Positions 2,230 through 57,454 of a stretch of 64,000 bases of DNA are shown here, piece after piece. Both the position numbers and the translations under genes were made by a program. Below the pieces are notes generated by a model, which was not told the origin of the DNA, did not search any database, and saw only the letters and a program-made list of their open reading frames with translations. Origin of the DNA: Sporosarcina jeotgali (GTDB taxonomy: Bacteria > Bacillota > Bacilli > Bacillales_A > Planococcaceae); NCBI RefSeq assembly GCF_033304595.1, contig NZ_CP116341.1, positions 2,769,001 to 2,833,000 on the forward strand, in the 5' to 3' direction. How positions within the stretch are numbered: the stretch's first letter is position 1; every line of letters starts with the position of its first letter.

Positions 2230-2637
2230 TTATTCGTTGCGCTGTTTGAGTGCAGTCACGAAGCCTTGGTCTTCGTTCATGGCCTGTACAAGATCGGTTA
2301 TTCGATCCATCGCGTCCCAGCTCAGGTGATGTTCAATTCCTTCAACATCTCCATATATGTTTTCTTCCTTCACTCCGATAATCCGCAAAAATTGTTCCAG
2401 CAATTCATGCCGCTGCACGAGACGTTCACCAAAATTACGGCCGCGAACGGTTAAGCTGATATCTTTATAGCGTTCATAAAAGACGTAGCCTTCCTTATGC
2501 AAACGCTGCGCCATTTTTGTGACGGATGAAGGGAGGACAGCGAGTGATTCTGCGACGTCAGAAACTCTGGCCTGGCCTTTTGCTTCAATTTGCAAGTAAA
2601 TTTGTTCAATGTAGTCTTCCATACTCGGTGTTGCCAA
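2230..2637 (-). CDS. mntR: Manganese-responsive DtxR-family repressor MntR
   Basis: A 135-residue protein closely matching Bacillus MntR: the N-terminal [12 protein letters not shown], a winged helix with [20 protein letters not shown], and a dimerisation/metal domain with [14 protein letters not shown] and [12 protein letters not shown], which carry the Asp, Glu and His metal ligands. I place the start at a TTG (2635-2637) because GGAGGTG lies six bases upstream and the protein then begins like known MntR (about 142 residues). A longer frame to 2769 would add 44 unrelated residues. MntR represses Mn(II) uptake genes; none are in this window. Confidence 0.92.
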
Positions 2638-2693
2638 TCCAAGCACCTCCGGTAACATTTTATAGCCCATTATCCTCAAATAATTTTTTCTGT

Positions 2694-2719
2694 GTTTAAC
2701 ACATTTTATTGCGGGGTAT
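2694..2719 (+). promoter_or_regulatory. Sigma-B-type promoter
   Basis: GTTTAA at 2694-2699 and GGGTAT at 2714-2719 are separated by 14 bp. This matches the general-stress sigma-B consensus GTTTAA-N12-15-GGGTAT exactly. It lies about 50 bp upstream of the small membrane gene at 2770. sigB itself is not in the window. Confidence 0.7.
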
Positions 2720-2769
2720 CTAAACAACATAACCAATTCAATCACAATCTCGAAAGGAGTGAACGACAC

Positions 2770-2925
2770 ATGGGTAAATTACTTTGGATTATCATTGTAG
2801 CACTAATTGCATTCTGGGTGCTCGGCCTAGTTTTCAAAATCGGTGGTGGACTTATTCATATCTTGCTCGTCATCGCACTAATCGTATTTATTCTTAATAT
2901 GATTTCAGGTAGACGGTCAGTTTAA
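2770..2925 (+). CDS. Small membrane protein, lmo0937 family
   Basis: A 51-residue protein, [20 protein letters not shown] and onward, with two hydrophobic segments joined by a short KIGGG turn and a basic C-terminus (GRRSV). This is the lmo0937 family of tiny membrane proteins common in Bacilli; the function is unknown. The ATG is eight bases after AAAGGAGTG. The frame is open upstream to 2692, but that stretch lacks a ribosome binding site and overlaps the promoter. The sigma-B-type promoter suggests a general-stress gene. Confidence 0.85.
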
Positions 2926-2962
2926 ATAAAGGGATGTCGGGTTTTCTCCGACATCCCTTTAT
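2926..2962. terminator. Bidirectional intrinsic terminator
   Basis: A perfect hairpin, GGGATGTCGG with CCGACATCCC and a seven-base loop, is flanked by AAA and TTT. It sits between the convergent small membrane gene and the double-GNAT gene and can serve both strands. Confidence 0.85.
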
Positions 2963-2967
2963 CACGT

Positions 2968-4074
2968 TTACTGGCTGATTTTTGCATAAACAACTGTGTT
3001 CCTCAAATGTGTGCCATCAGCCGACCGATCATCATTTTTCAATACAGCTTCCTGTTCAAAGCCCGACCGTTCTGCAACGGCACGGCTTTTTTTGTTGAGC
3101 TCATCGCATCTGATTTCTACGCGCCTGGCACCTAGTTCATCGAACGCAAACTCCGTAATCCGTTCTACAGCCTCTGTCATGTATCCTTTTCCTTCATATC
3201 CATTAGCTAACCAGTAGCCGATTTCAACTTTGGGAATGGTCCAATCGATTCGATGCAACCCCGATGATCCAACGAAGTCACCTGTTTCTTTCTCGAACAA
3301 ATGCAGCCTTAGATCTTTTTTCATGATGAAATCTGCAATGCTCTGGCGCATCCGCTGTTCTGTGTCCGCCAGATTCTGCGGCTGATACGCCCACGCCATC
3401 CATTGCCGCAGAGTCGGCAGTGTCTGCAAAATTGCATTATTGACATCAGAGACGTCATTTAATGACGGCATGCGGATGAGTAACCGTTCCGATTCAAATT
3501 GGTCTGGGAAATCCGGAATTTCTTGAACTATATGAGAATCCTCGTGATCTTCCCAAACGACGGGTGTTTTCTTTCCGGCCATATAGTCTTCACGAGTGAT
3601 TCCGTAAGTAATGGCATCATAAAAACGGTCTTCTTCAGGAGAAAACCATGCTTGCCGCAAGTGCCCCTCTTTTACAAATCCTGACCGTTCAAACGTTTTG
3701 CGCATCGCCAAATTGTCATGACGTGTATGTCCAGCCAATCGGTTCTTTCCTTCCGGCAGGCCGAATACATAGTCCGCCATAAGCCGTAACGCGCTGGCTC
3801 CATAGCCTCTCCCGCGATACCGGTCTGCGATACGCAAGTCGAATAAAGGGACATCGTCTTGTAAATCATGAATCTTTGCGATGCCCACTTTTTCACCATT
3901 GTCATTGACGAGCCAAAATGTTTTAACTTCATCTGACTCGTAACCGCCTTCTCGTATCGCCTTTTCAATCAATTCACGACCTGAGTTTTCTTGCATATGA
4001 AATGGCCATGTATTCGTTGTCATGAAGTGGATCAGCTGTTCCTGTTCCACCATTGTCCATTCTTTAAGTTGCAT
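2968..4074 (-). CDS. Tandem double GNAT acetyltransferase
   Basis: A 368-residue protein made of two complete GNAT domains. The first (about residues 1-160) has RIADRYRGRGYGASALRLMA as the acetyl-CoA loop and FERSGFVKEG near its end. The second (about 190-368) is RimJ/RimL-like, with ESERLLIRMP at its start, GYWLANGYEGKGYMTEAVE and AERSGFEQEAVLKND. Two GNAT domains in one chain usually mean one catalytic and one structural or divergent unit, but both nucleotide-binding loops look intact here. The substrate is unknown. It stands alone, 28 bp from the cadA stop on the same strand. Confidence 0.85.
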   Translation of the reverse strand: MQLKEWTMVEQEQLIHFMTTNTWPFHMQENSGRELIEKAIREGGYESDEVKTFWLVNDNGEKVGIAKIHDLQDDVPLFDLRIADRYRGRGYGASALRLMADYVFGLPEGKNRLAGHTRHDNLAMRKTFERSGFVKEGHLRQAWFSPEEDRFYDAITYGITREDYMAGKKTPVVWEDHEDSHIVQEIPDFPDQFESERLLIRMPSLNDVSDVNNAILQTLPTLRQWMAWAYQPQNLADTEQRMRQSIADFIMKKDLRLHLFEKETGDFVGSSGLHRIDWTIPKVEIGYWLANGYEGKGYMTEAVERITEFAFDELGARRVEIRCDELNKKSRAVAERSGFEQEAVLKNDDRSADGTHLRNTVVYAKISQ

Positions 4075-4101
4075 TAGGAAGTTCCTCCAAACGACTGCTT
4101 C

Positions 4102-6210
4102 TTACTTTTGAATTCTCATTAATCGAAGTGAATTCAACACTACTAACAGTGTTGCCCCCATATCTGCAAAGATTGCGATCCATAGCGTCAGCCAGCCTGG
4201 GATGACGAGAAGCAGTGCAGCAATTTTTAGTCCTACTGCAAACATAATGTTTTCTTTGATAGTACGCAACGTTTTTCTACTTAATTTCACGGTATATGGC
4301 AATTGTTCCAGGTCATCAGCCATTAGGGCAATGTCCGCAGTTTCAAGTGCCGCATCCGTTCCGGCACCTCCCATTGCGATACCCACTGATGCTGCAGCAA
4401 GTGCAGGGGCATCATTAATGCCATCTCCAACCATTGCCACGCGCTTTTTACCTTCACTCAATTCACGGATTGCAATGAGTTTATCTTCCGGCATAAGCCC
4501 TGCACGCACATCGTCAATTCCTAAACGGGCAGCAATTGCTTGCGCCGTTTTCGGGTCGTCCCCTGTCAGCATGACAGTTGTATCTACACCGATTTCTTTC
4601 AAACGGTCAAGGACGAGTTTACTTTCCACTCTAACGGGGTCCGCGACTGCAAATAATCCGGCAAATACACCGTCGATCACAGCGCCCATTACAGATTTAC
4701 CTTCTGTCTGCATAGTAGCGGCAGTTGTTTTTGCATCTTTCGGCAGTTCTGTCAGTTCCTCCATCCAGCGGAGACTTCCGACAGACACTTTCTTACCACC
4801 TACATCCGCGACTGCGCCCTTACCTGTGACAGATTGGAAGTTTTCAGCTTGCATCACTTCGAGGCTGCGCGCCTCTGATGCATTGACAAGTGCACGTGCC
4901 AGGGGGTGCTGTGAGAGACGCTCTACTGCTGCGACTGACTGCAGAAGTTGCGCTTCTTCCACTCCATTTGCGGTGATAATATCCGTTACCTCTGGATATC
5001 CTTTCGTCAATGTACCGGTTTTATCGAACGCAACGGTCTTGATGTGACCCATTTCTTCTAAGTGGACGCCGCCTTTAATGAGCACACCTTGACGCGCTGC
5101 ATTGCCAATTGCTGTGACGATCGCAACAGGGGTGGATACGACTAATGCACACGGACAACCTACGACTAGAACTGCCAGCCCTTGATAAATCCACGTTTGC
5201 CAATCCGCACCGAGAAGTGGCGGAATAACGGCTGTTAGCGCTGCGATAACGATAATCGCCGGCGTATAATATTTTGCGAATTTGTCGATGAATTGTTGCG
5301 AAGGCGCTTTTTCAGCTTGTGCATCTTCAACAAGATGAATGATTTTAGCAATCGTCGTGTCTTCGACTAATTTGGTTACGGTAACTTCAAGGGACCCTTC
5401 TTCGTTCAGTGTCCCTGCGAAAACGGTATCATCTATTTCCTTGATGACGGGTACAGATTCGCCGGTAATGGCGGCTTGGTTTACGGTAGAATACCCGGAT
5501 TGGACCGTACCATCCATCGCAATTTTCTGACCCGGCTTTACAATTAGGACGTCTCCAACTCGAATATCTTCTGTTGGCAGCTCAAACGTTTCTCCGTTTC
5601 TTCTGATCGTTGCTGAAGGAGGCGCGATGTCCACTAAACTGCTAATGGATTGCCGGGCTTTGTTCATGGAATAGGATTCCAGTGCTTCACTAATTGCAAA
5701 TAGAAGTACGACAACAGCGGCTTCGCGCCATTCCCCAATGATTGCGGCGCCGATAATTGCAATGGTCATCAGGGTGTTCATATCAAATTCCAGGCGTACG
5801 AGGTTTTTGAGCCCATCGATGAACATGGAAGTTCCGCCGACTACTATTGCGATTGCAAAAAGAGCGATTGCCGTTACGTTCGTTTCTCCGTATTTATTGG
5901 ATAAAAATAAACCTGCCAGAAGAAACACGAGAGAAATAAGTGAAACAATGTTTTCTCTCCGTTTGAAGAATGGTGTTTTCTGAGTCGGTTTCCGCTGGGA
6001 TACCGGGACAACCCGAATGCCGTCAAATGCACCAGCTGATTCAAGTTCACCGACGGTCGCGTCCCCTGCAAACGAAAGTTTACTGGCACCGAAGTTCACA
6101 GTCGCCGCTTCAACATGAGGAAGACGGCTGACGTTTTTTTCAAATTTCATCGCACAGTTCGCACAGCTCAAATTCTCCAGCCGATATTCTGTTCTGTCCG
6201 TTTCAGCCAT
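4102..6210 (-). CDS. cadA: Heavy-metal P1B-type ATPase, CadA-like (Zn/Cd/Pb efflux)
   Basis: A 702-residue pump. One HMA domain at the N-terminus (about 5-65) carries SCANCA. Six to eight membrane segments follow, with the metal-binding CPC in GCPCALVVSTP, the phosphatase loop TGES, the phosphorylation site DKTGTLTKG, the HP of HPLARALV, and the hinge GDGINDAPALA. The CPC type and pairing with a CadC repressor fit export of Zn(II), Cd(II) and Pb(II). The ATG at 6210 follows GGAAGGTG and overlaps the cadC stop by 8 bp, indicating translational coupling. A frame extension upstream lies wholly within cadC and is rejected. Confidence 0.93.
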   Translation of the reverse strand: MAETDRTEYRLENLSCANCAMKFEKNVSRLPHVEAATVNFGASKLSFAGDATVGELESAGAFDGIRVVPVSQRKPTQKTPFFKRRENIVSLISLVFLLAGLFLSNKYGETNVTAIALFAIAIVVGGTSMFIDGLKNLVRLEFDMNTLMTIAIIGAAIIGEWREAAVVVLLFAISEALESYSMNKARQSISSLVDIAPPSATIRRNGETFELPTEDIRVGDVLIVKPGQKIAMDGTVQSGYSTVNQAAITGESVPVIKEIDDTVFAGTLNEEGSLEVTVTKLVEDTTIAKIIHLVEDAQAEKAPSQQFIDKFAKYYTPAIIVIAALTAVIPPLLGADWQTWIYQGLAVLVVGCPCALVVSTPVAIVTAIGNAARQGVLIKGGVHLEEMGHIKTVAFDKTGTLTKGYPEVTDIITANGVEEAQLLQSVAAVERLSQHPLARALVNASEARSLEVMQAENFQSVTGKGAVADVGGKKVSVGSLRWMEELTELPKDAKTTAATMQTEGKSVMGAVIDGVFAGLFAVADPVRVESKLVLDRLKEIGVDTTVMLTGDDPKTAQAIAARLGIDDVRAGLMPEDKLIAIRELSEGKKRVAMVGDGINDAPALAAASVGIAMGGAGTDAALETADIALMADDLEQLPYTVKLSRKTLRTIKENIMFAVGLKIAALLLVIPGWLTLWIAIFADMGATLLVVLNSLRLMRIQK

Positions 6211-6663: not shown

Positions 6664-7402
6664 ATGATCGTGAATTCTGTTTCCACTTTCTGCACTGAAT
6701 TGCTTCGCAAAGCGAAGCACACCAATTAAATCCTGGTTTTGATTGGTGAAGTGCACTTTTTTCGCGATTTTGGGAGTTGTGAGAGGAGTGGAGTGCCGCG
6801 GGCAGGATGGGGCTTGGTGGACACGGTGGGTGCGGTGTTTATGAGCGTATTTTAAGTTTTATGAGCGGAATCCGTTGGTTATGATCATATTTCATGGTTT
6901 ATGAGCGCATTCCTGGGGTTATGATCAGTTTCGGGGATTTATGAGCACTATCTCTGTTTTATGAGCTTTTATTGAGTTTTATGAGCACATGGTAAGCCAT
7001 GAGCCTTTTCTATCTCCGCCACTTGCAATCAACTACACTTTCGTCCCCACTTTCCGTACTGAATCGCTTCGCAAAGCGAAGCACACCAATTAAATCTTGG
7101 TTTTGATTGGTGAAGTGCACTTTTTTCGCGATTTAGTGAGGTGTGGGAGGAGTGGAATGCCGCGGGCAGGATGGGGCTTAATGGGCGCGGTGTTTATGAG
7201 CGTATTTTGAGTTTTATGAGCGGAATCTGTTGGTTATGATCATATTTCATGATTTATGAGCGCATTCTTGGGGTTATGATCAGTTTCGGGGATTTATGAG
7301 CGTTATCATAGTTTTATGAGCTTTTATTGAGTTTTATGAGCATCTGCTGTCATAAAGGAGGCCACAACTGCAGCACACTCGGTCGCTTATCCGAACCCAA
7401 AC
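6664..7402. repeat. Intergenic tract with two tandem copies of a hairpin + GAGCG-array cassette
   Basis: There is no supportable gene here. Copy 1 (6683-6988) and copy 2 (7047-7342) are about 90% alike and offset by 364 bp, falling to 355 bp after a 9-bp indel. Each holds, in order: the hairpin GCTTCGCAAAGCGAAGC, an imperfect CACCAAT/ATTGGTG inverted repeat, the palindrome AAGTGCACTT followed by a T-run, a GC-rich spacer, then eight repeats starting ATGAGC or ATGATC at exact 20-bp intervals (6841 to 6981, and 7196 to 7336). It lies upstream of the cadC promoter and beyond the penicillin-acylase terminator. Confidence 0.85.
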
Positions 7403-7439: not shown

Positions 7440-9827
7440 TTATTTCGCTTCCAGTGTCAACACGTGCCCGTCTTTCACATCACCCGTCAAAACAGTCTCA
7501 TGGAAATCTCCTCGGACCCAATCATCCGCTTGGTCATGGAACCATTGCGACTTTACGTGGCCGCTTTGTCCTGGCCCTACAATATGGTAGGCCTTGGATA
7601 AGTCATCCATATCAGCAACGAAACGCCATGAAGCCCCGTGATTGGCACTGCCATCGTCTTTGAAAGAAGCAGCTTGAACGGTAATCCCTGATCCGCCAAC
7701 AGGCTGCTTTTTCGGATCCAGGAAACGTGCTAATATCGGTGAAGCGCCAGATAACGGATGCGGGAATACGAGCTGATGGAAATCTCCCCACTTCCACTTC
7801 TCCGACTTATCTCCATACTCTTCTTTTAAACTTGCGATCGTCTTTTCAAATGCATCAAATACCCATTGGTCAACTCCTCCATACTCAGCCACCCAAGAAG
7901 AGGGGTCTCCTTTATACGCACTTCGAAGAAACTGATCCGTCAATTGCGGCTTCCCTGGCATGAATTCGTAAACGTCCGCAGGCATATCTGAGGCAAACAT
8001 GGTAACTGGTAATTGTTTCATAAGTTTATGGAAGATTAAAGGCTGTGGTGCGTCTGCTGAATCCACTTGATCCCATTCTTTCATCTCATCTAAAACTTTC
8101 GTGTAACTCCCTTTTCGATCCAGCTTTTCAATGGATCCAATCAGTGAGTCTAAAAATTCTCCAGCATGTAAATTCTTTTGATCCATTTGTAAGTTCATCA
8201 TGTCTTTTGCAGTAAAGTCATCCCCATCGCGAAGCACTTCTGCAATCCGCTCATAGCGGTAAGGCTGCGCCCAAAACTTCGTAATGTGGTACGGATATTT
8301 TTCATCTACAACTTCATTGTTTGCGGTAGCAATGAATCCTTCGTCAGGGTTCACTAGAGTTGGCAATTCATCATACGGAACATAGCCATCCCATCCGTAT
8401 TCAGATGAATTCCCTGGAACCGGCAGCTGGGCATCGCCCTTTTTACGGATTGGGATTTTCCCATTCGCTTTGAATGCAATCGTTCCATCTGTTGAGGCGA
8501 AGACAAAATTTTGTGCAGGTGCACTGAACGATTCCAAAGCTGTTTCAAAGGACTCCCAATCGTCCGCTTTGTTCAAGTCCATAATCGCTTCAAGCTCATT
8601 ACTCGGTTCCAGTGCCGTCCATTGCATCGAGAACACCGCATCCGGTTTTTCATCCTCATAAATGATGTCAGTAATGATTGGTCCGTGCCTAGTGACGACA
8701 ACTTCGAATGGTACATCTTCTTCGTCTTTCACTCGGATGGTTTCGTCACGGACTTCGGCTTGCTCCCATTCATCATCGTATTGGAATTGAGTTGGATCGT
8801 CGGGATTTGGTATTTCGATATAGAGATCTTGAACGTCCGGACCCACGTTTGTTACGCCCCATGCAACTTTCTCGTTATGACCGAGAATGATGCCAGGAAT
8901 CCCTGCAAAAATGACACCGCTGACATTCTGTTCCGGTGACTTCAAGTGAATTTGATGCCAAATCGACGGTGTACTGAGTCCTAAATGAGGATCATCCGCC
9001 AGCAGCGGCATTCCTGATTTTGTTTTATCCCCCGATACAACCCAGTTGTTGCTTCCGTTAAATTCATGTGGAAGTAATTCGGGGTCAAACTGCCCTGTCA
9101 CTTGAACGGGATTTTTTAGATTTGCTTCCATAATGGATTCTGCATTTTCCGGATAGGTAATGAACAAATCTTGTGCTTTTTCTTCAGAATAATGATTAAG
9201 CGCCCAGTGTCTCATGGCTTGCGGCGTCCACTTTCCACCTAAGTCATATGCCATATACTTTCCAATCGTCAGCGAGTCAATCGGCGTCCATGGTTCTGGT
9301 TCATAGCCAAGCAACTTGAATTCATAGGACAACTTTCCATTGTCTTTGACTTCGTCCATGAATGCATTCACGCCATCTGCGTACCATTCCAACACTTGCT
9401 TGGCATCATCGCCGTATGTGTCAAATGATTTCTCGGCTGCGTTTCTCAGACTGAATGTGCGGAATTGTTTGTCGGTGTCAATCGCTTTCGCACCAACTAC
9501 TTCAGAGAGTCTGCCACTCGCCTGTCTCCGCGCGAGATCCATTTGAAACAGTCGATCTTGTGCATGAACATACCCTTGCGCGCGATATAAATCGGCGTCG
9601 GACGTTGCCTCCAAATGAGGGACACCATTTTCATCTCGGGTCACGGTTACGTCTTCGTCCAGAACAGAGAGTTGAACGTTTCCTTCAATCAGCGGCTTCG
9701 ATTTTCCTATGTAAACGTTTACAAAGATAAGTGCAGCTGCAACAATGACGACTAGTGCCGCGAGAATCCATAGAAGAATCTTCAGTGGTTTGCCCATTCT
9801 CTTTTGATGCTGTGCATGTTTTGCCAT
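7440..9827 (-). CDS. Penicillin acylase family (Ntn-hydrolase), membrane-anchored
   Basis: A 795-residue protein with a basic N-terminus and one membrane segment (about 15-40), then the alpha-chain region (VPHLEATSDADLYRAQGYVHAQDRL), a linker, and the beta-chain opening at Gly-Ser (about Ser259, in GSNNWVVSG). In penicillin and AHL acylases this Ser becomes the N-terminal nucleophile after self-cleavage. The substrate is probably an N-acyl amide such as a beta-lactam side chain or acyl-homoserine lactone, and cannot be told from sequence. The start at 9827 follows GGGGAG by six bases; a TTG five codons upstream overlaps that site. It is flanked on both sides by 20-bp repeat arrays. Confidence 0.9.
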   Translation of the reverse strand: MAKHAQHQKRMGKPLKILLWILAALVVIVAAALIFVNVYIGKSKPLIEGNVQLSVLDEDVTVTRDENGVPHLEATSDADLYRAQGYVHAQDRLFQMDLARRQASGRLSEVVGAKAIDTDKQFRTFSLRNAAEKSFDTYGDDAKQVLEWYADGVNAFMDEVKDNGKLSYEFKLLGYEPEPWTPIDSLTIGKYMAYDLGGKWTPQAMRHWALNHYSEEKAQDLFITYPENAESIMEANLKNPVQVTGQFDPELLPHEFNGSNNWVVSGDKTKSGMPLLADDPHLGLSTPSIWHQIHLKSPEQNVSGVIFAGIPGIILGHNEKVAWGVTNVGPDVQDLYIEIPNPDDPTQFQYDDEWEQAEVRDETIRVKDEEDVPFEVVVTRHGPIITDIIYEDEKPDAVFSMQWTALEPSNELEAIMDLNKADDWESFETALESFSAPAQNFVFASTDGTIAFKANGKIPIRKKGDAQLPVPGNSSEYGWDGYVPYDELPTLVNPDEGFIATANNEVVDEKYPYHITKFWAQPYRYERIAEVLRDGDDFTAKDMMNLQMDQKNLHAGEFLDSLIGSIEKLDRKGSYTKVLDEMKEWDQVDSADAPQPLIFHKLMKQLPVTMFASDMPADVYEFMPGKPQLTDQFLRSAYKGDPSSWVAEYGGVDQWVFDAFEKTIASLKEEYGDKSEKWKWGDFHQLVFPHPLSGASPILARFLDPKKQPVGGSGITVQAASFKDDGSANHGASWRFVADMDDLSKAYHIVGPGQSGHVKSQWFHDQADDWVRGDFHETVLTGDVKDGHVLTLEAK

Positions 9828-9883
9828 GGAACTCTCCCCCAATCCTAATTTTTCACAGTACTTTATCTATATTCGTTGCAAAA

Positions 9884-9915
9884 CTAAAAAATCCCTTTCA
9901 AATTTGAAAGGGATT
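9884..9915 (-). terminator. Perfect-palindrome terminator, probable end of the mrp transcript
   Basis: 9890-9915 is a perfect 26-bp palindrome with 13-bp arms (AATCCCTTTCAAA and its complement). On the minus strand it is followed by T6. No minus-strand gene ends nearer than mrpG at 10343, so the simplest reading is that it terminates the mrp operon after the repeat array. Confidence 0.7.
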
Positions 9916-9938
9916 GCTTGGTGTGGATTGGATTAGGT

Positions 9939-10350
9939 ATGAGCGGGTGTGCTTGTTTATGAGCGGATTCATGAGTTTATGATCACTTCTCGAAACTTAT
10001 GAGCGGATTCCGCGGTTTATGATCACTTCTCACGTTTTATGAGCGTTTCCACTGGTTTATGATCACTTCTACAGCTTTATGAGCGTTTCCACAGGTTTAT
10101 GAGCACTTCTCCAGCTTTATGAGCGTTTCCACAGGTTTATGAGCACTTCTCCAGCTTTATGAGCATTTCCACTGGTTTATGAGCACTTCTACAGCTTTAT
10201 GAGCGTTTCCATTGGTTTATGAGCACTTCCCATGCTTTATGAGCGTTTCCACAGGTTTATGAGCACTTCCCACGCTTTATGAGCGTTTCCACAGGTTTAT
10301 GATCACTTCTACAGCTTTATGAGCGTTTCTACACCTGTATGATCACTTAG
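9939..10350. repeat. Strict 20-bp GAGCG/GATCA array, 21 units
   Basis: Twenty-one units begin ATGAGC or ATGATC at 9939, 9959, 9979 and so on to 10339, with no indel. From 9979 on, two types alternate: ATGA(G/T)CACTTCY with a variable tail ending in TTT, and ATGAGCGTTTCC with a tail such as ACAGGTTT, giving a 40-bp super-repeat. The last unit overlaps the mrpG stop codon. The interval matches two DNA helical turns. I do not recognise this as a named repeat family. Confidence 0.95.
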
Positions 10351-10744
10351 CGTCGTCTATCCCGTTATCTTCCTGATCATCCCCCTTAAGGCGATCGCCA
10401 TGAATGACTTCATACAATTCATCTTCCACTGAAATCTCCGCGAGTTCTACTTTTGAGCGATACGCGGCGCGGATAATCAGATGGCCTGCGACAGGGGCTG
10501 TTAGGAAAACGAAGACGATTCCCAGCAATACACGGACACTGACGAAATGGTCGTGGAACAAGAAATACAGGAACACGCCGATTAACGTCAGCAGCACTGA
10601 TAGCGTTGAGCTTTTCGTTGCGGCGTGTGAACGCGTGTAGACATCTGGCAAGCGAATCAGCCCGAATACACTGATCACACTGAAAATACTACCGAAGAGG
10701 ATGAGCAGGGCCCCAATGAATTCACCGATCTCGTTTTCGTTCAA
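10343..10744 (-). CDS. mrpG: Mrp Na+/H+ antiporter subunit G
   Basis: A 133-residue subunit with three membrane helices (about 7-30, 37-60, 65-85) and the family motif GLIRLPDVYTRSHAATKSST. It closes the seven-gene Mrp complex. The start is a TTG at 10744, six bases after AGGGGGG; this overlaps the mrpF 3' end by 23 bp. A longer frame from 10780 lacks a ribosome binding site. The hydrophilic C-terminus (GDDQEDNGIDDAK) is lineage-specific, and its last codon and stop lie inside the final unit of the 20-bp array. Confidence 0.93.
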   Translation of the reverse strand: MNENEIGEFIGALLILFGSIFSVISVFGLIRLPDVYTRSHAATKSSTLSVLLTLIGVFLYFLFHDHFVSVRVLLGIVFVFLTAPVAGHLIIRAAYRSKVELAEISVEDELYEVIHGDRLKGDDQEDNGIDDAK

Positions 10745-57033: not shown

Positions 57034-57420
57034 TTGAGCGGATTTACTTCTCGCTTGATCACATTCGCCTGGGCTTGAGCGGGTTCGTCTTACGGAACGA
57101 GCGGGTTGGCATCCGGATTGAGCGAGTCGCCTTCCGGAACGAGCGGGTTGCTCCTCGAATTGAGCGGGTCGCCTCGCGGAACGAGCGGGTTGCTCCTCGA
57201 ATTGAGCGGGTTCCCTCGCGGAACGAGCGGGTTGGCGTCCGAATTGAGCGGGTCGCCTTCCGGAACGAGCGGGTTGCTCCTCGAATTGAGCGGGTTCCCT
57301 CGCGGAACGAGCGGGTTCACGTCCGAATTGAGCGGGTCGCCTTCCGAAACGAGCGGGTTGACCCTCGAATTGAGCGGGTTCCCTCGCGGAACGAGCGGGT
57401 TCGCATCCGGATTGAGCGGG
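57034..57420. repeat. 21-bp GAGCG array, 19 units
   Basis: GAGCG starts at exact 21-bp steps from 57099 to 57414 (16 units), preceded by three looser units (57036, 57057 with GATCA, 57077). Two unit types alternate, one with AATTGAGCGGG and one with GGAACGAGCGGG, a 42-bp super-repeat. Because 21 is divisible by three and the unit lacks stops in several frames, long spurious ORFs appear on both strands. It lies between two convergent terminators. It shares GAGCG, the rarer GATCA variant and the alternating design with the 20-bp arrays near 7 and 10 kb. Confidence 0.92.
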
Positions 57421-57454
57421 TCACCTTACGGGTCGCTCCAATCCTCATCCACAC

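Follow-up and report, generated by a model that had tools for sequence, protein, structure and literature searches.

The array of 21 direct repeats found in this 64-kb stretch of DNA (the window) belongs to a genome-wide family of arrays that have a conserved core and a conserved step, pile up at a size of eight units and are indifferent to orientation; the array in the window has no RNA structure. The best reading of these data is that an array is a platform for cooperative protein binding, perhaps for nucleoid organization.

The array in the window and its surroundings

The initial annotation reported 21 units with an exact 20-bp step. This was borne out, since the 21 ATGAKC cores in the window start at positions 9939, 9959 and so forth up to 10339, and all 20 steps measured 20 bp. 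The unit consensus in the host genome, derived from a profile of 518 array units, is TTTATGAKCR-CWWTYCNNGR, with T or G as the first base. It had also been claimed that GAGCG and GATCA units alternate and form a 40-bp super-repeat. The super-repeat is real, because tail identity is 74% for units i and i + 2 as against 55% for neighbors; TRF likewise returned a period of 40 bp (9.4 copies, 89% matches). The labels of the two types, however, did not hold: GATC is present in 5 of the 21 units, and the alternate type is mostly GAGCA. What sets the types apart is the tail, together with the base that follows the C (GGAGAGAGAGAAAGAGAGAGA); this base is G or A in almost strict alternation.

The features of the window are listed in Table 1. 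Upstream of mnhG are further antiporter subunit genes (PF04066, PF01899 and PF00361). The statistic for the terminator-like hairpin is weak, with 1 found versus 0.6 expected in shuffled sequences. On either strand, the 21-unit array folded no better than shuffled sequences (z values of -0.26 and -0.34), and there were 0 matches to Rfam families at the gathering threshold in the 64-kb window, so that an RNA structure for this array was rejected. The array of the related subfamily sits in the gap between two convergent genes; an ORF of 189 amino acids that reads through it is probably spurious.

Table 1. Coordinates of arrays and associated features in the window and of insertion sequence copies in the host genome
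Feature	Position	Strand	Remarks
Window array	9937..10356	+	21 units of 20 bp; from core positions, steps and unit profile
mnhG, Na+/H+ antiporter subunit (PF03334)	10343..10744	-	Final 14 bp (3' end) overlapped by last unit of window array
Penicillin amidase family gene (PF01804)	7440..9842	-	Other flank of window array
Intrinsic-terminator-like hairpin	9890..9915	-	Follows the array; same strand as the antiporter operon; 11-pair stem
Second array	6839..7018	+	9 units; seven steps of 20 bp and a last one of 18
Third array	7194..7355	+	8 units; every step 20
Array of related subfamily	57075..57431	+	TTGAGCGGG and AACGAGCGGG alternate; 42-bp super-repeat, i.e., 21-bp steps
ISL3-family copy	L041 3629-5345		Host genome
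ISL3-family copy	L045 1401-3117		Host genome
ISL3-family copy	L299 3256-4972		Host genome

A genome-wide family with a pile-up at eight units

The host genome is a single 3.20-Mb contig, in which the pattern TATGAKC-N5..35-TATGAKC produced 613 matches; its reversed counterpart produced 1. There were 6 chained arrays in the window plus 20 evenly spaced pieces and 0 in the reversed sequence of these regions; both comparisons exclude chance. A search of the genome for array starts identified 49 places (0 in the reversed control). We measured 53 arrays in 736,532 bp of the host genome; after merging, they correspond to 41 loci. Since this sample combines evenly spaced pieces with pieces around listed arrays, array density in it is not a genome average. 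The measured arrays span 0.4% of the genome. Their 547 steps comprised 518 of 20 bp, 27 of 21 bp and 2 of 18 bp. Unit positions 2 to 7 and 9 carried 1.8 to 2.0 bits over 518 units, a level that is partly a product of the search, as arrays were found by the core itself.

Array size was exactly 8 units in 18 of the 53 arrays and at least 8 units in 49. The four below this size (4, 5, 5 and 7 units) abut an insertion sequence or form part of a compound array, and among the 53 host arrays no TATGAKC chains of 2 to 6 units were seen other than at insertion sequences or in compound arrays. The measurement accepted chains with just two exact cores, and the targeted pieces were picked by two- or three-unit patterns; in the untargeted pieces and the window alone, none of the 6 arrays had fewer than 8 units. 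The pile-up at eight applies to the host TATGAKC arrays and to the rho site considered below. Two subfamilies are also present in the host genome. CTTGAKC arrays mix 21- and 20-bp steps (41-bp dimer) and range from 4 to 12 units in size; an example was observed in L011 (host genome, 380 to 395 kb). GAGCGGG arrays are built of 42-bp dimers (2 x 21). With regard to a viral origin, the three-unit pattern had one match in each of 14 viral contigs.

Arrays lie between genes and avoid divergent gaps

According to a simple gene caller of our own, none of the 53 arrays is inside a called gene; a 20-bp step means that an in-frame unit repeat is not encodable. Placement was assessed for 38 of the 41 merged loci, the other 3 being at piece edges, and expected values were derived from the intergenic bases of the window and of the evenly spaced pieces. 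Convergent gaps harbored 14 of the 38 loci (5.3 expected; P = 0.0004), one of which is split by an insertion sequence, whereas divergent gaps harbored 1 (8.5 expected; P = 0.0008). Tandem genes flank the other 23 loci, one of which adjoins an edge array; no orientation was preferred, with 10 arrays running with the genes and 12 against them. The distances of 36 loci from the presumed origin were not significantly skewed (Kolmogorov-Smirnov [KS] P = 0.06), the contig start being placed near the replication origin on the basis of neighboring genes. Orientation that tracks the replichore was rejected, as plus-strand arrays occur on both halves.

Core and step are kept at an orthologous site

Constraint was counted at one locus, the gap between rho and rpmE, and read by eye at other loci. 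The rho-rpmE gap contains an array of 8 units in seven species (G000, G038, G046, G010, G007, G020 and G025), 8 units with one 21-bp step in G008 and 9 units in G022. Arrays in the opposite orientation were found in G012 and G045 (9 units of 21 bp) and in G039 (9 units of about 20 bp). At the remaining 18 of 30 rho loci, no GAKC chain longer than two was found within 700 bp after rho. In G012 and G045 (L262 and L266), the gap measures 212 to 213 bp, of which 189 bp are the 9-unit array, with little else.

The seven species with the same layout were aligned, leaving out G008 and G022; all array steps were 20 bp, so that the columns of the array were set by position. The core (T3, A4, T5, G6, A7 and C9) showed a pairwise difference of 0.6%, the G/T position 11% and tail positions 11 to 20 a difference of 29%, although T at tail position 14 is also constrained (7%). 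The 100-bp flanks differed by 32% and 36%, and their alignments contained 12 and 13 gap runs. In units 3 to 8, the type of each unit, G or T, was retained in all seven species. Core and step look protected by selection, because they remained nearly or fully constant at rho-rpmE where tails and flanks diverged and because most array-rich genomes have a predominant step; the remainder of the unit seems to drift. The expectation that relatives would keep the step while tails vary was thus confirmed at this site in seven species. The related proposal of selection on spacing gained support from the same comparison, but not in the form of a wholly rigid step, since 29 of the 547 host steps are 21 or 18 bp and steps of 21 and 19 bp are present in G008.

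Array length is labile, and long arrays are homogenized

In contrast to core and step, array length is labile. Among the 51 loci inspected at the mnhG site, chains of 21 (G000), 19 (G010), 24 (G046), 13 (G022) and 8 (G008) cores were found, while G007 and G020 are cut by contig ends. Arrays with a 21-bp step occur at this site in G028, G047 and G044, a 20-bp array with the core ACGAGCGGT in G017, and related 41- to 42-bp arrays of opposite orientation in G002 and G031. The four-core chain of G036 is not array-like, and there was no array in G025 or the other remaining loci. Nine host arrays, including that at rho, were compared with G010 and G025. Both flanks were resolved for 7 arrays in G010, where each of the 7 sites contained an array of 7 to 32 cores; 4 were resolved in G025, each likewise occupied, with 8 to 11 cores.

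Homogeneity increased with array size (Spearman coefficient of 0.75). In arrays of at most 9 units (n = 28), tail identity was 0.39 to the next unit and 0.46 to the next but one; the corresponding values for arrays of at least 14 units (n = 14) were 0.50 and 0.75. Because long arrays are homogenized in 40-bp steps and short ones are not, the array appears to have a short stable form that occasionally grows through the amplification of dimers. An earlier warning that the array might be a neutral expansion is therefore justified for the labile length and the homogenized long arrays, but it does not extend to core and step, which were kept at rho-rpmE in seven sister species.

An insertion sequence that targets arrays

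All three host copies of an ISL3-family element (PF01610; Table 1) are inside arrays, each between TTAT and GAKC, and are flanked by 8-bp direct repeats (GGGTTTAT, GGATTTAT and GGGGTTAT). An array likewise harbors the sole copy of this element in G038, which sits at a different unit position; its left end lies outside the sequence covered. A relative with 51% identity is present in G045 (2 copies) and, partially, in G006, and no pair of ATGAKC cores at 21 bp adjoins it. Homing of the insertion sequence to arrays as a general rule was consequently rejected, given that both G045 copies show no array alongside, and array targeting holds for this close group of copies only.

Occurrence and step length in relatives

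A contig search yielded at least 120 matching stretches; the matches listed comprised, as judged by title, 80 loci, of which 43 were in Sporosarcina, 28 in other Bacillales, including Planococcus, Bacillus methanolicus, Fictibacillus, Rossellomorea and Evansella, and 9 outside this order. The pair pattern had at least one match in 58 of 61 genomes of the same genus, many of them at control level. Triples with a 20-bp step were present in 40 and triples with a 21-bp step in 49 of the 61 genomes, in some cases by one or two matches. Such a patchy presence indicates that array function is dispensable or replaceable. Step length divides sister species. Among the 32 genomes that had 50 or more triples, at least 90% of the triples were at 20 bp in 11 and at 21 bp in 14, and 7 genomes were mixed; the extremes are illustrated by the host (492 triples at 20 bp versus 10 at 21 bp) and G045 (1 versus 668).

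In a wider group, the three-unit TGAKCR pattern was found in 143 of 261 genomes and in 14 of 19 genera, many genomes having one to three matches and some being at chance level; in G093, G094, G117 and G221 the reversed control exceeded the matches. The alternation of GAGCG and GATCA recurs, among the matches listed, in genera g8 and g6 as well as in Planococcus chinensis. Seven chains of 16, 11, 8, 6, 4, 4 and 3 exact-core units were found in 400 kb of G045, where one four-unit chain is irregular in step and the three-unit chain is cut by a piece end; chains in other genera had 3 to 14 exact cores. No arrays were found in a 200-kb sample of G060. In a sample of the same size from G005, a species without TGAKC triples, we observed 21-bp repeats with another core, GCTTGCACTCA (L310 12736-12849 and L317 9515-9604), as if the core had been replaced.

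What the arrays may do

The polar direct repeats, strict two-turn spacing, conserved core, usual size of at least eight units in the host and indifference to orientation point to a platform that acts at the level of DNA. We infer that a protein reads the arrays, binds them cooperatively and has a role in the nucleoid. By a small measure, we judge it probable that the arrays are docking strips on DNA for a putative, cooperatively assembling protein and have a part in nucleoid organization. Such a sequence-specific protein would read the core TTATGAKC(R) once per two helical turns and assemble side by side along the array, with about 8 adjacent sites (160 bp) apparently being the usual minimum in the host genome. 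Some forty strips, intergenic and away from divergent promoters, would then provide the nucleoid with points of anchorage or nucleation. Eight units do not constitute a general minimum, however, considering the 4 to 12 units of CTTGAKC arrays, an ortholog of 7 units in G010, the chains of 6, 4 and 3 units in G045 and those of 3 to 6 exact cores in other genera. Nor do all cores face the same side of the helix, as had been suggested: at 10.5 bp per turn, this is exact for a 21-bp step (2.00 turns), whereas a 20-bp step drifts by about -34 degrees per unit. The two step types thus imply either a different geometry or a DNA twist that is altered by binding.

Two rival explanations concern DNA. 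Neutral or selfish satellite DNA would lengthen and shorten as 40-bp dimers slip or are exchanged unequally, and would owe its constant step and core to recent copying, which would agree with the greater homogeneity of longer arrays, the variable length of orthologous arrays (e.g., 8 versus 32 cores), the gain and loss of sites such as that at mnhG, and the short chains in other genomes and the subfamilies. Copying, however, cannot keep the rho core alike, because the tails there are unlike and the units are orthologous one by one between species; host TATGAKC chains of 2 to 6 units were, moreover, confined to insertion sequences and compound arrays. In view of the rho-rpmE comparison, this reading appears strongly disfavored, and we rate it as quite unlikely. 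Alternatively, the arrays might be insulators or supercoil sinks that bind a topoisomerase or a roadblock protein at gene ends in a BIME/REP-like manner. The enrichment in convergent gaps, the depletion in divergent gaps and the absence of arrays from called genes are in line with this idea, which we nevertheless regard as unlikely: with 41 loci measured, most gene ends have no array, many species manage without arrays, and array orientation is unrelated to neighboring genes.

A ring of the RemA type as the reader has the appeal of a numerical fit to array length, as 16 subunits at 10 bp each correspond to 160 bp or 8 units. According to one report, RemA forms 8-mers and 16-mers, has been proposed to wrap DNA and leaves footprints of 7 protected bp at 3-bp intervals (PMC8481266). 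For this genus, RemA as the reader is refuted by the lack of PF04025 matches in all 61 genomes, the control having matched 3 of 14 named genomes, including Bacillus subtilis, and we give the ring idea hardly any credence. An element that acts as RNA is improbable, whether in a 3' untranslated region (3'-UTR) or as an array of small RNAs, an option that Subirana and Messeguer consider. The array in the window may be transcribed, as it is bordered by mnhG on one side and, on the strand of this gene, by a terminator-like hairpin on the other, and the 52-nucleotide (nt) satellites of Bacillus coagulans are reported to be widely transcribed (PMC8625621). Yet orientation is evenly divided among tandem loci, and the rho site has arrays in either orientation across species, an indifference that argues against a function as RNA, as do the folding and Rfam results for the window.

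Returning to docking strips for a protein, it is conceivable, though we offer this as a tentative extension, that many Bacillales carry a chromatin-like system in which a putative oligomer sits on about 8 or more cores, two helical turns apart, and each species has a variant of the protein that determines the step, be it 20 or 21 bp. If so, dozens of dispersed arrays would shift core and step together, like eukaryotic satellites and the proteins that bind them. Should a dedicated reader exist, a further genome-organizing protein would be at work in many spore formers and related bacteria.

Relation to known repeats

The BIME/REP arrays of enterobacteria are hairpin-forming elements. The present arrays resemble them in being dispersed, intergenic, mostly at gene ends and targeted by insertion sequences, but they are direct repeats with a fixed two-turn spacing, and the window array folds no better than shuffled sequences. 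Plasmid centromeres such as parC of ParMRC contain direct repeats of about 20 bp that are bound cooperatively by a small protein. The arrays share with parC direct repeats near 20 bp; however, a plasmid has one such site, and the present chromosome has some forty.

No relevant paper was recognized by title in a literature search for the core letters and tandem repeats. The initial statement that no named element has such a design needs amending, since the available text of a study on Bacillus describes noncoding repeats of constant length, 20 to 21 nt and 52 nt (Subirana and Messeguer 2021, PMC8161180). This text notes that 20 to 21 nt correspond to two helix turns, suggests protein polymerization or small RNAs, and mentions a few repeats of 40 to 41 nt, several families of different sequence per genome and a short signal that the repeats of one species have in common; some species have many such repeats, others few. 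For B. subtilis, its Table 4 gives one tandem repeat and none in the 20- to 21-nt range. The arrays reported here belong to this class of 20- to 21-nt repeats. Their steps are nearly constant, with 20 bp in 518 and 21 bp in 27 of 547 cases; they are noncoding, 0 of 53 being inside a called gene; there are several families of the same length, namely, TTATGAKC (20), CTTGAKC (41, i.e., 20 + 21) and GAGCGGG (42); and they have a short characteristic sequence, which partly follows from the core-based search.

The same text states that there is no sequence conservation and gives a signal of its own, TCGCGG in B. weihaiensis; it does not name Sporosarcina. In contrast, the same core was found here in seven sister species and in other genera, TGAKCR recurring across many of the family's genomes and TATGAKC being present in other Bacillales, both as found by core search. 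Relative to what is available of PMC8161180, the core shared between genera, the predominant step per genome, the pile-up at eight units and the constraint measured at an orthologous site are new, as are the avoidance of divergent promoters and the targeting by an insertion sequence. Orthologous arrays separate what is selected (core and step) from what is not (tails and the number of units above eight), and a descriptive curiosity about 20- to 21-nt repeats in Bacillales becomes testable.

A composite tandem element

Some arrays of 7 to 9 units are part of a composite tandem element with a spacing of 306 to 355 bp, which was observed in the window (about 6684-7355), in L046 (about 3020-4600) and in L044 (about 2630-3252). 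In addition to the array, the element consists of a GCTTCGC...GCGAAGC hairpin, a stretch resembling TTAAATCTTGGTTTTGATTGGTTAAG and a conserved lead-in of about 100 to 150 bp. Five consecutive copies are present at 2.837 Mb of the genome.
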